In this document: in pieces, positions 1 through 4,182 of the stretch
Layout: each line of letters starts with the position of its first letter
Position numbering within the stretch: the stretch's first letter is position 1
Position numbers and translations under genes: made by a program
DNA from: Litoribacter populi
GTDB taxonomy: Bacteria > Bacteroidota > Bacteroidia > Cytophagales > Cyclobacteriaceae
Length of the DNA stretch: 64,000 nucleotides
Direction: 5' to 3'
Assembly (NCBI RefSeq): GCF_007483685.1
Contig: NZ_VMKN01000001.1
Coordinates: 3,290,143-3,354,142, forward strand
The notes under the pieces: model-generated
What the model saw: only the letters and a program-made list of their open reading frames with translations
Databases searched by the model: none
What the model was told of the DNA's origin: nothing

Positions 1-565
1 CATCCTCTAAGAGAACGTGTTGACGTTGTTTTCAGTTGTCCAATGTACTCATATCACTCTTATCTATTCTTCGGGTTCCGCCCTGTTTTTATGATAAGGA
101 GCCTCTTTTTGAGCATCTAACAGCTTTACACCGGTAACATTCATTTACTGTCAAGCGGCAAGGTTCAGCCCTTCGGAAATTGTGAGACCTCCATGGATTC
201 TCATGGCTCATGTCCATTCCTACTATGGCTTCTGCTGACTTCTCATGGCAAGCTTTACTCCGTGCTTCATACTCCGTTTCCGCACGTCCATGAGACCTCC
301 CGTGGGAAGGCAACCCACTTTCACTCCATGTCCCCGACTCATTTACACCCCGATGTCCGTGTAATCTTTGGACTTTGACTTGTTTAGCAGCCTCATCCCA
401 TCGGATATGCCTGATGAGGTTCGTGTTCCTCGGGGCAGAGTTTTGCCTCCAGCTTCCTTCAGATTCCACCTCGCGGTGGACACCCTTGCTCTTGGCTAGT
501 GGTTGGCGATTACAAACCCCCACAGTGGACTTTCACCACCTAGTTGATTGCCATGCACGGCACAC
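1..565 (-). mobile_element. group II intron, bacterial class C (IIC), 5' part; continues past the left edge
   Basis: On the minus strand the element opens at 565 with GTGTG, matching the GUGYG 5' end of group II introns, followed by CCGTGCATGG. It then carries blocks I recognise from the Oceanobacillus iheyensis class IIC ribozyme, in the same order: GCAAGGGTGTCC (489-478), GGAATCTGAAGGAAGC (467-452), GAGGAACACGAAC (431-419) and GAAGTCAGCAGAAGCCATAGTA (242-221). These are domain I segments. The reverse transcriptase/maturase gene would lie to the left. On the minus strand an open frame without a clear ATG runs from about 53 to the edge and may be its beginning. The 5' exon is the terminator of the lipoprotein gene, which is the usual target of IIC introns. 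The 3' end, domains V/VI and activity cannot be judged from this window. Confidence 0.88.
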
Positions 566-593
566 TAAAAAAAGCCACTCTTGCGAAGTGGCT
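566..593 (-). terminator. Rho-independent terminator of the lipoprotein gene and intron insertion site
   Basis: On the minus strand an AAGCCACT/AGTGGCTT hairpin with a short CG-rich loop is followed by seven T and one A. The intron 5' end (GTGTG) begins at the very next base, 565. Confidence 0.85.
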
Positions 594-605
594 TGTTTCA
601 AAATT

Positions 606-1340
606 TTAAAACTGATCTATATCCTGTCTTTCCAAGGGCCTGAATTTTCTTCTCACTCCAAGCTCGTCATCTTCCATTTCTCCCTCATGAAAGGGATGTG
701 CTTCTGCTAATCGGTCACCATCATAAAAAATTCTGGTAGCATCATTTTGTGCCAGCTTGTTAAGGGGATCCCCGTAATTATCTAGCATTACAAAAGCATA
801 CTGATAGTTTCTCAAACCCTCATCCGAAACTTCAGCACTCACTACTTCTAGACTTCTAAATCTTGCTGTATCTATTCTGTCTCTTTCATGATAAACATAA
901 TAATTTTCCACTATTGAAAACGCGGAAAACTTGTTACCGTTTCCTGACATGTATCTTTTTTCATTCGGGGAATCATAAACGATATTATCAAACTCCGGAT
1001 CCACTCCTCTTACGTCCATTACCACAGATAGGTCAGACATATTTTGTTCTCTAAATCTATAATAGTAATCCTCTACCCTTTCCCCTGATTGATAAGTCCA
1101 GTTTTGCTCATTACTGGCAGTCATATAATAGGGACTGGCTTTAAATGATCCTGACACTTGAGGTGGGGTTTTACCCTCATGCATAATAAAATTCATTCTT
1201 TCAAGCTGCTGAATTCTTTCCACTGGTGCTATTTCCAGGATTTCTGGGACAAAGACTTCGTTATAGTCTTTTTGGTCATCTGATGTACAACTACTCAACG
1301 CAATAGCGCATAGGGCTACACCGCAAAATTTCCTTAACAT
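606..1340 (-). CDS. putative lipoprotein of unknown function
   Basis: This 244-residue protein starts with a type II signal peptide: basic residues at 3-4, a short hydrophobic stretch, then lipobox LSSC with Cys18 as the predicted lipidation site. The mature part is soluble and rich in acidic and aromatic residues. I recognise no domain. The start is well supported because AAAGGAGGT (1346-1354) lies 5 bases upstream of the ATG, a strong Shine-Dalgarno match and unusual for this phylum. The gene appears monocistronic and ends at the terminator occupied by the group II intron. Location in the inner or outer membrane cannot be decided from the lipobox alone. Function is unknown. Confidence 0.85.
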   Translation of the reverse strand: MLRKFCGVALCAIALSSCTSDDQKDYNEVFVPEILEIAPVERIQQLERMNFIMHEGKTPPQVSGSFKASPYYMTASNEQNWTYQSGERVEDYYYRFREQNMSDLSVVMDVRGVDPEFDNIVYDSPNEKRYMSGNGNKFSAFSIVENYYVYHERDRIDTARFRSLEVVSAEVSDEGLRNYQYAFVMLDNYGDPLNKLAQNDATRIFYDGDRLAEAHPFHEGEMEDDELGVRRKFRPLERQDIDQF

Positions 1341-1395
1341 GATTTACCTCCTTTAAATAATTAAAATATCAATAAACTTTATAAAAAAACATCCC

Positions 1396-4182
1396 TTAAG
1401 CATTGTCACGCTGTAAAAACTGACGAAAAACATAATTCAGGATACCTCCATGTTTGAAGTATTCAATTTCAATGCCAGAATCCAACCTACTTACAACTTC
1501 GAAACTTTTTCTTGATCCATCCTCACTCTCCACCTTTACTAAAAGCCTCTTACCAAGTTCCAAGCCTGTTTCTATATTTTCAATTGAGTATTTCTCCTTA
1601 CCGGTAAGCCCTAATGTTTCCGCATTTTCACCTTCTACATACTGAAGTGGCATTACTCCCATACCTACTAAGTTACTTCGATGGATCCGTTCGTAACTTT
1701 CCGCAATGACTGCTTTTACTCCCAATAAATTAGTCCCTTTGGCAGCCCAATCCCTAGAGGACCCGCTTCCGTACTCTTTACCAGCCAATACCATCAATGG
1801 AGTGTTGGTCTCTTTATATTTCTGTGCGGCATCATAAATATTCATCTCCTCCCCGCTTGGAATGTGCATCGTGTATCCGCCTTCTTTTGAAGACAATTCA
1901 TTTTTGATCCTTACATTGGCAAATGTCCCTCTAACCATAATCTCGTCATTTCCACGTCTGGACCCATAGGAATTAAAATTCGCTTTTGGAACCCCTCTCT
2001 CTAAAAGGAATTTTCCAGCGGCAGATACTTCCGAAAACGCTCCTGCTGGGGAGATATGGTCAGTAGTGATGCTATCTCCGAGTTTTAAAAGAACTTGCGC
2101 ACTTCTAATATCTTGAGGTTCGGAAATTTCTTCAGAAATCCCATCAAAAAATGGTGCCTCTTTGATATAAGTTGATTTCTCATCCCATTGATAAACCGGA
2201 TCCTTTGGTACCTCCAGGTTTTTCCATTGTTCATTTCCCTCAAAAATTTCTCCGTAATTCTTGTCAAAATCGCTAGGTGAAAGAACTTGGCTTACCAAGC
2301 CAAATATTTCTTCATTGCTAGGCCAAATGTCTTTTAGATACACCGGCTCCAGATTAGGGTCATACCCCACTGGTTCGGAATTTAAATCGATATCAACCCT
2401 TCCAGCTAGAGCGTAGGCCACCACAAGCATGGGGGACATCAGGTAATTCATTTTAACTTGGGGATGTACCCTTGCTTCAAAATTTCTATTTCCAGAAAGC
2501 ACTGAAGCCACTACTAAGTCATTATCTTCCACAGCCTGCGCGATATGCCTAGGTAAAGGCCCACTGTTGCCAATACAAGAAGTACATCCGTAACCAACTA
2601 AATGAAACCTTAAGGCTTCTAGGTCGTCAAGGAGGTTAGCTTTGATCAGATAATCGGTAACAACCTTTGAACCTGGCGCAAGGGAGGTTTTGACCCAAGG
2701 CTTCACATCCAAGCCCCTTTGACGAGCTTTTTGGGCCACCAATCCAGCACCGATCATTACGTTGGGATTGGAGGTATTGGTACACGAGGTGATGGCCGCT
2801 ATTACCACTGAGCCGTCATGAAGGGCAAATTTTTCATTATGCAACTTTACAACCACTGTCTTCAAACCATCGCGAAGTTTGGTTTCAATTTCCACTTCAG
2901 ATGGAACGGTTGGAGACTGCTCAGTCGGCTGGCTGCTTCCGCCTTCTTCATACCATCGACTCACATCTCTCTTGTCAATGGGAATATATTCCCTTCCATG
3001 CACTTCGTGGAGTATTTCTCCAAATTTACTCTTAAACTCCCTAAGCAAAATCTTGTCTTGTGGCCTTTTTGGTCCCGCTACCGTTGGTTCTACATTATCA
3101 AGGTTCAAATCTACAACACTAGAATACTCAATTTGCTCCTCATCTTTTCTCCAAAGCATGTTTTCTTTACAATATTGCTCGACTAGCTTGATTTGCTCTT
3201 CGCTTCGATTGGTTTTGGCCATGTAATCCAACGTACGGTCGTCAATAGGGAAATAGGTTACTGTACAGCCAAATTCAGGAGACATATTGGCTATGGTGGC
3301 CCTGTCCGGCACAGAAAGGGTATCCAGGCCTGAGCCGAATACCTCCACAAACTTACCCACCACCCCATGACTTCTGAGAAGCTGAGTTATGGTAAGCACC
3401 ATATCAGTAGCGGTAGTGCCTAGGGGAAGGGAGCCCGTAAGCTTAAGCCCCACAACTTCTGGCATGATAAAGTTAATCGGTTGACCTAGGATGGCAGCTT
3501 CAGCCTCGATTCCACCGACTCCCCACCCTACTACACCTATTCCATTCACCATGGGTGTATGGGAGTCCGTTCCCACAAGCGTATCCGGGAAAATCGCCCC
3601 ATCCCGAACAATCACCCCTTTAGCCAGATATTCCAAATTGACCTGGTGACAGATACCCATCCCTGGAGGAACTACCGAAAAATTATCAAATGCAGTTTGG
3701 GCCCACTTTAGCAACTGGTACCTTTCCCCATTTCTTTTATACTCAACATCCACATTTTTCTTATAGGAATAGTTGGTTCCAAAATAGTCCACTTGGACTG
3801 AGTGATCTATCACTAAATCAACGGGGATAAGTGGATTTATCTTTTGTCCATCTTTACCCTTGCGGACGGCTTCTGCACGGAGGGATGCAATATCCACCAC
3901 TGCCGGAACGCCGGTAAAATCCTGCATTAAAACCCTAGCAGGTTTGAAGGGTATATCCTTATCAGAAGGTTGCGGAGCCCAGTTGAGGATGGTCTCTATG
4001 TTATCTTTGGTAATGGCAAAGTTATCGAAATTGCGAAGGACATTTTCCAAAAGGATCCGGATACTAAATGGCAGTTTCTGAAGGCTTTTGCCCTGCTGGC
4101 AAAGCTCTGTAAGACTCCAATAATCGAGACCGCCTTGAGCAGTGGAAAGAGTTTTCTTAATATTATATGGATCCAATGACAT
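1396..4182 (-). CDS. acnA: aconitate hydratase, AcnA/IRP1 type
   Basis: Aconitase interconverts citrate and isocitrate in the TCA cycle using a [4Fe-4S] cluster. At 928 residues the protein has the length of the AcnA/IRP1 class rather than the shorter mitochondrial type. The three cluster cysteines are visible: Cys467 in TSCTNTSNP and Cys533/Cys536 in GCTSCIGNSG. The swivel domain is at the C-terminus, with GSSRDWAAKG and the SYERIHRSNL segment. The ATG at 4182 is followed directly by a good N-terminal domain. The gene stands alone, with 617 bases of non-coding DNA upstream and a 55-base gap to the lipoprotein gene downstream. No upstream regulator site was identified. A 2-methylcitrate-related paralogue is less likely given the canonical motifs. 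Confidence 0.96.
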   Translation of the reverse strand: MSLDPYNIKKTLSTAQGGLDYWSLTELCQQGKSLQKLPFSIRILLENVLRNFDNFAITKDNIETILNWAPQPSDKDIPFKPARVLMQDFTGVPAVVDIASLRAEAVRKGKDGQKINPLIPVDLVIDHSVQVDYFGTNYSYKKNVDVEYKRNGERYQLLKWAQTAFDNFSVVPPGMGICHQVNLEYLAKGVIVRDGAIFPDTLVGTDSHTPMVNGIGVVGWGVGGIEAEAAILGQPINFIMPEVVGLKLTGSLPLGTTATDMVLTITQLLRSHGVVGKFVEVFGSGLDTLSVPDRATIANMSPEFGCTVTYFPIDDRTLDYMAKTNRSEEQIKLVEQYCKENMLWRKDEEQIEYSSVVDLNLDNVEPTVAGPKRPQDKILLREFKSKFGEILHEVHGREYIPIDKRDVSRWYEEGGSSQPTEQSPTVPSEVEIETKLRDGLKTVVVKLHNEKFALHDGSVVIAAITSCTNTSNPNVMIGAGLVAQKARQRGLDVKPWVKTSLAPGSKVVTDYLIKANLLDDLEALRFHLVGYGCTSCIGNSGPLPRHIAQAVEDNDLVVASVLSGNRNFEARVHPQVKMNYLMSPMLVVAYALAGRVDIDLNSEPVGYDPNLEPVYLKDIWPSNEEIFGLVSQVLSPSDFDKNYGEIFEGNEQWKNLEVPKDPVYQWDEKSTYIKEAPFFDGISEEISEPQDIRSAQVLLKLGDSITTDHISPAGAFSEVSAAGKFLLERGVPKANFNSYGSRRGNDEIMVRGTFANVRIKNELSSKEGGYTMHIPSGEEMNIYDAAQKYKETNTPLMVLAGKEYGSGSSRDWAAKGTNLLGVKAVIAESYERIHRSNLVGMGVMPLQYVEGENAETLGLTGKEKYSIENIETGLELGKRLLVKVESEDGSRKSFEVVSRLDSGIEIEYFKHGGILNYVFRQFLQRDNA

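Follow-up and report, generated by a model that had tools for sequence, protein, structure and literature searches.

A protein-less class IIC group II intron behind a terminator in Litoribacter populi and its probably trans-mobilised relatives in Bacteroidota

The stretch of Litoribacter populi DNA analysed here (hereafter the window; 64,000 nucleotides (nt) of contig NZ_VMKN01000001.1) carries at its left edge a minus-strand group II intron, inserted behind the Rho-independent terminator of a lipoprotein-like gene. The element is a complete class IIC intron lacking an open reading frame (ORF) for a reverse transcriptase (RT). We consider it likely that it belongs, with its relatives, to a non-autonomous class IIC family that is mobilised in trans by the RTs of other introns.

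The intron begins with GTGTG at 565 and extends past the left edge of the window, the whole measuring 652 nt (G000:C1:3290056-3290707; G000 is the 4.5-Mb, 7-contig window genome, C1 and C5 are contigs of it, and other G and L numbers label the genomes and loci compared here). Three Rfam models match it, every score lying above the gathering score; the last of them, RF00029, covers domains V and VI (D5-D6) at 44.3 bits (G000:C1:3290056-3290132, window positions -86 to -10). D5-D6 forms two hairpins with a bulged A as the seventh base from the 3' end, and its folding energy is -41.2 kcal/mol versus -25.0 in shuffles (z -5.0). The intron closes with CCCGAT, and the next gene on the same strand, which from its protein alone we take to encode glucose-6-phosphate isomerase (pgi), starts about 50 nt beyond. 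Thus the preliminary description of this DNA, which had proposed a minus-strand group II intron starting at 565, agrees with both Rfam and the sequence, and the domain V that it sought to the left lies just outside the window; the RT or maturase gene that it expected there is absent, the intron ending at 652 nt shortly before the next gene. The parts of the intron are as follows.

1 to 565, minus strand: window part of the ORF-less class IIC intron; its last 87 nt (G000:C1:3290056-3290142), with D5-D6 and the 3' splice site, lie outside
561 to 565, minus strand: 5' splice site and intron start GTGTG
310 to 480, minus strand: domain I core (Rfam group-II-D1D4-3, RF02001, 141.6 bits, E 2.7e-29)
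383 to 386, minus strand: exon-binding site 1 (EBS1), TAAA, paired at 4/4 positions with intron-binding site 1 (IBS1)
168 to 261, minus strand: domain III region (Rfam group-II-D1D4-1, RF01998, 42.0 bits)
1 to 166, minus strand: reduced domain IV (D4), about 167 nt with approximate borders, without an RT gene and with an architecture common to other ORF-less introns
57 to 101, minus strand: D4 hairpin, found also in the RT-gene leader of full-length relatives; presumed to bind RT in the manner of DIVa

No RT gene lies between the intron start and its 3' end, and a search with the RT of relatives found no RT core in the ORF-less introns, the window copy included, which match weakly in short N-terminal stretches only (residues 2-56, best E 0.003). 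A 144-aa frame at 89-523 was not accepted as a gene because it runs across the ribozyme. Loss of the RT genes at contig joins, an assembly artefact, is scarcely conceivable: many relatives do lie at contig ends (G165, G326, G095), but the window copy is found inside a 3.6-Mb contig with unbroken flanks and two Persicobacter copies are on complete plasmid records.

A D5 triad of CGC rather than AGC is a mark of class IIC. In the alignment the window intron has CGC, the RF00029 model AGC, and another intron of the window genome (L007) likewise AGC. The RT of a full-length relative (G324b) consists of RVT_1 and GIIM (maturase) domains with no other Pfam domain, and the RTs of relatives score 420 bits with the GsI-IIC RT and 413 with the group II RT 7uim, against 152 with LtrA and 118 with 6me0. 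Target choice, the GTGYG start, the RT type of full-length relatives and the D5 triad are therefore those of class IIC introns. An endonuclease-less (En-less) RT encoded in D4, which also belongs to the definition of the class, is missing, D4 being cut to about 167 nt; since the ribozyme features of the class are present without an RT, we classify the window intron as an ORF-less IIC ribozyme.

Robart et al., cited in PMC8919778, reportedly described in 2007 that class IIC (bacterial C) introns sit behind terminators. The junction in the window has the following elements.

606 to 1340, minus strand: lipoprotein-like gene, 244 aa, with its own stop codon, upstream of the intron
567 to 594, minus strand: Rho-independent terminator, the intron target, with a 9-bp stem (594-572) and a 7-T run (573-567)
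566 to 569, minus strand: IBS1 (TTTA, ending at A566), the last four 5'-exon bases

Pfam gave no family for the 244-aa protein. On the minus strand, the order is seven T (573-567), A566 and the first intron base, G565; placing the intron start on the base right after the T run, as had been done before, was off by one, for A566 intervenes and pairs with EBS1. A terminator scan of window positions 1-1400 returned one site against a mean of 1.3 in shuffles, so that taken alone it is no proof, and the case depends on position and on the relatives. Among the latter, a stem of 6 or more together with 5 or more T among the last 12 bases is present in 56 of 62 5'-junction rows (the L066 junction being counted twice and L047:4230 being an intron-intron junction), versus 129 of 3000 random positions drawn from the same fetched loci. 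Together with Rfam, the RT of relatives and the terminator itself, these rows sustain the earlier assignment to class IIC with insertion behind a terminator. They also show that the window junction is not the "uncommonly clean" example it had been called, since most relatives sit alike.

The window EBS1 (386-383) pairs with all four bases of IBS1, A566 included. Across the 30 introns in which both parts could be read, 106 of 120 EBS1-IBS1 positions are paired, against a permutation mean of 74.2 with 0 of 20,000 permutations as high, the permutation ignoring kinship; when only unique combinations are considered, 66 of 80 are paired versus 43.1. The test omits L042 (first bases changed), L047:4230 (an RT intron whose exon is replaced by another intron), the second L066 row and rows without a found EBS1. 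Pairing is complete in 20 of the 30 introns, and changes of the exon are tracked by full matches (TTTG:CAAA, TTTA:TAAA, TAGT:ACTA, TTGG:CCAA, TTAT:ATAA). One locus of Algoriphagus resistens (L044, G316:C34) is of a different appearance: at 2453 its 5' exon ends in GGGCTCTAAGAT, a hairpin without a T run, its EBS1 begins with ATC, matching GAT, and its family match stops after D5, with four tRNA genes beyond.

Searching with the window intron gave matches, many of them short, in 98 of 390 genomes of the host's family; two candidates per genome were scored, which makes copy numbers lower bounds. Matches over most of the 652 nt without an RT were found in G356, G326, G316, G018, G324 and G049, and decayed or cut ORF-less ones in G045 and G003, while in G324b, G334, G231, G157, G003b and G146 an RT stands between matches to 1-345 and 572-652 (or parts of these). 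A D4 query matched at 170 or more of its 186 positions in 7 of the 390 genomes (G324, G316, G018, G326, G356, G000, G003). With G049 and G165 added, the latter counted by seven ORF-less-type 3' ends only, ORF-less introns occur in at least nine of the 390 genomes and at least six genera.

A degenerate D4 pattern was also run over 84,980 named species, in a scan that inherently misses variants, does not include Persicobacter psychrovividus in its output and is not exhaustive. It found 11 stretches, two each in Algoriphagus resistens and Algoriphagus sp. MSM8 and one each in A. chordae, Lunatimonas salinarum, a Cytophagales metagenome-assembled genome (MAG), Salegentibacter tibetensis, S. salinarum, a Sphingobacteriaceae MAG and a Bacteroidetes MAG. 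Genomes of the 390 set (G316, G326, G324, G018, G003) account for seven of the 11. The four outside it combine domain I (D1) with the ORF-less D4, and no RT was matched inside the intron; D5-D6 was recognised by Rfam above the cut-off in L131 and L137, at 38.0 bits (cut-off 40) in L132, and by BLAST in L134. As Salegentibacter belongs to Flavobacteriales, Sphingobacteriaceae to Sphingobacteriales and Algoriphagus to Cytophagales, three orders are represented. A covariance model of the ORF-less D4 (R1), run on 390 genomes of the order with strict filters and 8 candidates per genome, matched three genomes: that of the window, G157 and G511, the latter two RT-bearing and matched through the shared D4 hairpin. 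R1 is hence a poor detector, and we draw no absence from it.

One D4 architecture is common to the nine aligned ORF-less copies and is likewise present in four more, and it occurs in none of the seven RT-bearing copies looked at. A single origin by one shared ORF deletion would be the simplest reading of this pattern. Alternatively, each ORF-less intron might be the dead remnant of a separate deletion in a local RT-bearing intron. Domains I-III of the window intron are indeed closest, at 93%, to the RT-bearing intron of G095, and a tree of domains I to III (D1-D3) distributes the ORF-less introns over three clades, every one of which also includes RT-bearing relatives. Independent decay is nevertheless quite improbable, given both the shared D4 architecture and the evidence for movement after the loss: five nearly identical copies that occupy five sites, and one ORF-less intron lodged within an RT-bearing one.

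The copies in question are those of P. psychrovividus NBRC 101262 (G049), four of which are identical and the fifth of which differs at 1 position in 650 nt. Each follows a different, unrelated terminator, and they are distributed over the chromosome and two plasmids (the copy at C8:20623 is the pPP7 match); the genome also has six RT-bearing copies with open RT frames. In A. chordae (G324, L047), the sequence reads as though the ORF-less intron had entered an RT-bearing intron between bases 1 and 2 of the latter. The EBS1 of the ORF-less intron, CCAA, fits TTGG, made up of the terminator end and the first G of the RT intron, and the EBS1 of the RT intron, CAAA, fits TTTG. Because the TTGG target was created with that first G, the ORF-less intron is, as the sequences read, the later arrival. 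S. salinarum (L134) presents the opposite order: here an intron that has D5-D6 and the tail of an RT abuts an ORF-less intron that is missing its first G. G165 contains seven identical ORF-less-type 3' ends (97.6% identity to the window over 124 nt) with seven different flanks, on contigs that end inside the intron, so that heads and tails cannot be joined. On this comparative evidence, the ORF-less family is mobile.

Retention as an element that splices and no longer moves, which a 2015 review states for introns lacking an encoded protein in general, is a further alternative, to which we give only a slim chance. In its favour, the window genome has a single copy and no close RT; the relatives, however, are multi-copy, and at a site outside genes and behind a terminator, splicing is hardly what maintains the intron. 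We rejected a regulatory role for the host because the terminators preceding the relatives are many and varied.

How an intron without RT might be moved is suggested by its D4, which is similar to the RT-gene leader of full-length introns and to the first codons that follow it. The inner part of a hairpin, GGACGGAAUCC or close to it, is found in both kinds of intron, while the letters of the outer stem differ. In an alignment of 15 rows, 98.7% of 150 cells are paired (0 of 500 shuffles as high), and covariation reaches 0.456 versus 0.225 in shuffles (0 of 500 as high) and 0.109-0.193 when the alignment is slid; G356, G045 and G146, whose cores differ, are not among the rows. PMC2882425 describes DIVa as the region of subgroup IIA introns that binds the intron-encoded protein (IEP). 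By position, the D4 hairpin is presumably the counterpart of DIVa, and by analogy it would bind RT.

In the trans-mobilisation that we favour, an ancestral intron would have lost about 1.3 kb with the RT gene but retained the hairpin to which RT binds. In the same genome, the RTs of full-length IIC introns would bind this hairpin, aid splicing and carry the ORF-less intron to new terminators, picked by their hairpin and by EBS1:IBS1 pairing, with cDNA synthesis primed at the replication fork. Replication-fork priming has been reported for En-less introns. An intron behind a terminator would be expected to cost the host gene little, and the window copy was most likely inserted by the same trans route. 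Of the genomes with ORF-less introns, G324 and G049 carry a related RT, G165 has part of one, and in G326 it is divided between two contigs; in others it is absent, fragmentary or distant, as set out below.

The window genome differs from that of P. psychrovividus, where multiple recent copies occupy sites with good EBS/IBS pairing: it has one copy. Further copies, for which the preliminary description had suggested a search, were not found, matches at E up to 1e-4 including none longer than 52 nt. Two RTs are encoded, with 47% and 33% identity to the RT of relatives, the first in a IIC-like intron with a different target and the second in another intron class. In a congener (G078), both flanking genes, the lipoprotein-like one at 94% identity, are found with no intron between them, "empty" meaning only this, since the intergenic DNA and terminator have diverged. 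A single copy, the lack of a close RT and the intron-less congener suggest that the window copy probably goes back to a lineage-specific insertion and is by now stranded for want of a close helper RT.

Several observations weigh against the trans-mobilisation of this family. The RTs of the window genome are only the distant ones just described, G356 has no RT match at E 1e-10, and G316 and G018 have fragments or distant RTs only, in a search of draft genomes, which often break at such repeats. The RT-bearing Persicobacter-type intron of G146 has a different D4 leader. At the junctions, the splice site was moved by 1-2 bases to a GTGYG start in nine rows before counting, and pairing is incomplete in 10 of the 30 introns (3/4 in L041, L043, L044, L046, L072, L124 and L127; 2/4 in L045 and L111; 1/4 in L055). 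As for the hairpin, its 15 rows (8 ORF-less, 7 RT-bearing) were chosen for holding the core, one of them by hand; 5 of 10 pairs changed on both sides compares with 3.5 in shuffles (11 of 500 as high), and there are 7 further pair types where shuffles give 9.5, with 500 of 500 shuffles at least as high.

The family appears to have a mosaic history. L112 (Algoriphagus sp. MSM8, G326:C2, 318-950; row MSM8d) is a chimeric ORF-less intron: over its first 75 nt it shares 96-97% identity with the A. chordae/Lunatimonas kind, and over the remainder of domain I it shares 87% with the window kind but 66% with that of A. chordae/Lunatimonas. With L112 removed, D4 data pair the two Salegentibacter introns (92/93) and reject a grouping of S. 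salinarum with introns of its domain I kind (approximately unbiased (AU) test, p 6e-5), while D1 data reject the Salegentibacter pair (p 3e-9); the groups were named after the identities were known, which makes these p values optimistic. Constraining the window-kind D1 group to hold together on D4 data gives p 0.113, which is no rejection; the D4 tree itself recovers the other D1 group as a clade (79/81) and leaves the A. resistens copies, three in number, ungrouped (p 0.06 when held together). A general rule that D4 follows the host was abandoned because its AU p values of 0.0019 and 0.0016 depended on the chimeric row MSM8d, without which 0.0019 becomes 0.113 and the second group forms the D4 clade.

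Module exchange is thus shown in one case and well supported in a second, and it is a possibility that D4 fits itself to the RT of the host. It is tempting to speculate, though we hold this only tentatively and would sooner doubt it than assert it, that these protein-less IIC introns of three Bacteroidota orders behave like short interspersed nuclear elements (SINEs), as parasites on the RTs of full-length introns, with a 5' end and domain I that recombine and a D4 of separate history, possibly fitted to the RT.

The TeI3 introns of Thermosynechococcus elongatus, which are not known to be of class IIC, offer a known system for comparison. PMC2882425 describes ORF-less TeI3 introns with one shared ORF deletion and part of DIVa kept, which, like those studied here, are multi-copy, have good EBS/IBS pairing and form twintrons by insertion into RT-bearing introns; their mobilisation by RTs of other introns is stated there to have been shown experimentally. 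The TeI3 set belongs to one genome, whereas the introns described here are of class IIC, terminator-targeted and spread over three Bacteroidota orders, and their trans mobility is what we infer. The ORF-less introns of phages in PMC12350094 are likewise proposed to use RT in trans; they differ in being phage-borne, those of the Listeria phage set having 40-50% mutual identity, and are apparently not this IIC family.

According to a review (PMC4424553), bacterial ORF-less group II introns are rare, splicing-only and have lost retromobility, nearly always share a genome with related and possibly trans-acting IEPs, and include non-mobile derivatives inferred not to last. In PMC8919778, 888 of 13,041 bacterial introns are counted as lacking an IEP, and ORF-less introns are described as increased in certain genomes. 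Among the literature matches listed, which leave subscription papers outside their scope, no title or abstract describes an ORF-less IIC family of Bacteroidota. A protein-less IIC lineage in three orders of one phylum, recently multiplied in at least one genome, would contrast with the rare, splicing-only view of PMC4424553. Furthermore, A. chordae and P. psychrovividus could serve as natural donor-helper pairs for studying the recognition of foreign intron RNA by a IIC RT, which would lead towards the 'one machinery, many introns' state that has been suggested to explain how the spliceosome arose.

Some minor observations concern the surroundings of the intron and the rest of the window genome. 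The intron 3' end (L006 2861-2914, left of window position 1) is separated from the start codon of the next gene by about 50 nt, and immediately downstream of this 3' end is a leader block kept in the congener; the insertion may therefore have displaced whatever stood upstream of that gene's promoter. Two weak D5-like matches, C5:2626-2677 and C1:2091162-2091213, were rejected as family copies, being one repeated intergenic stretch with no Rfam intron match at E 0.1. They hold a decayed D5-D6-like piece, and the 4.5-kb contig C5 duplicates the chromosomal stretch, perhaps through assembly redundancy.

L008 (G000:C1:1633771-1637850) contains a second IIC-like intron, with an RT, at about 229 to 2080. 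By eye, its leader lacks the shared D4 hairpin motif and its EBS1, ACATC, fits the exon GATGT; its target is a long imperfect palindrome with no T-run terminator. Downstream are more palindromes and, again by eye, a tyrosine recombinase-like gene (L172:9671-10492), which suggests a C-attC type intron in an integron-like array; a crude attC scan around L008 found nothing to confirm such an array. L007 (G000:C1:2473364-2474449) holds a third group II intron, of another class, with an open RT frame of 378 aa.
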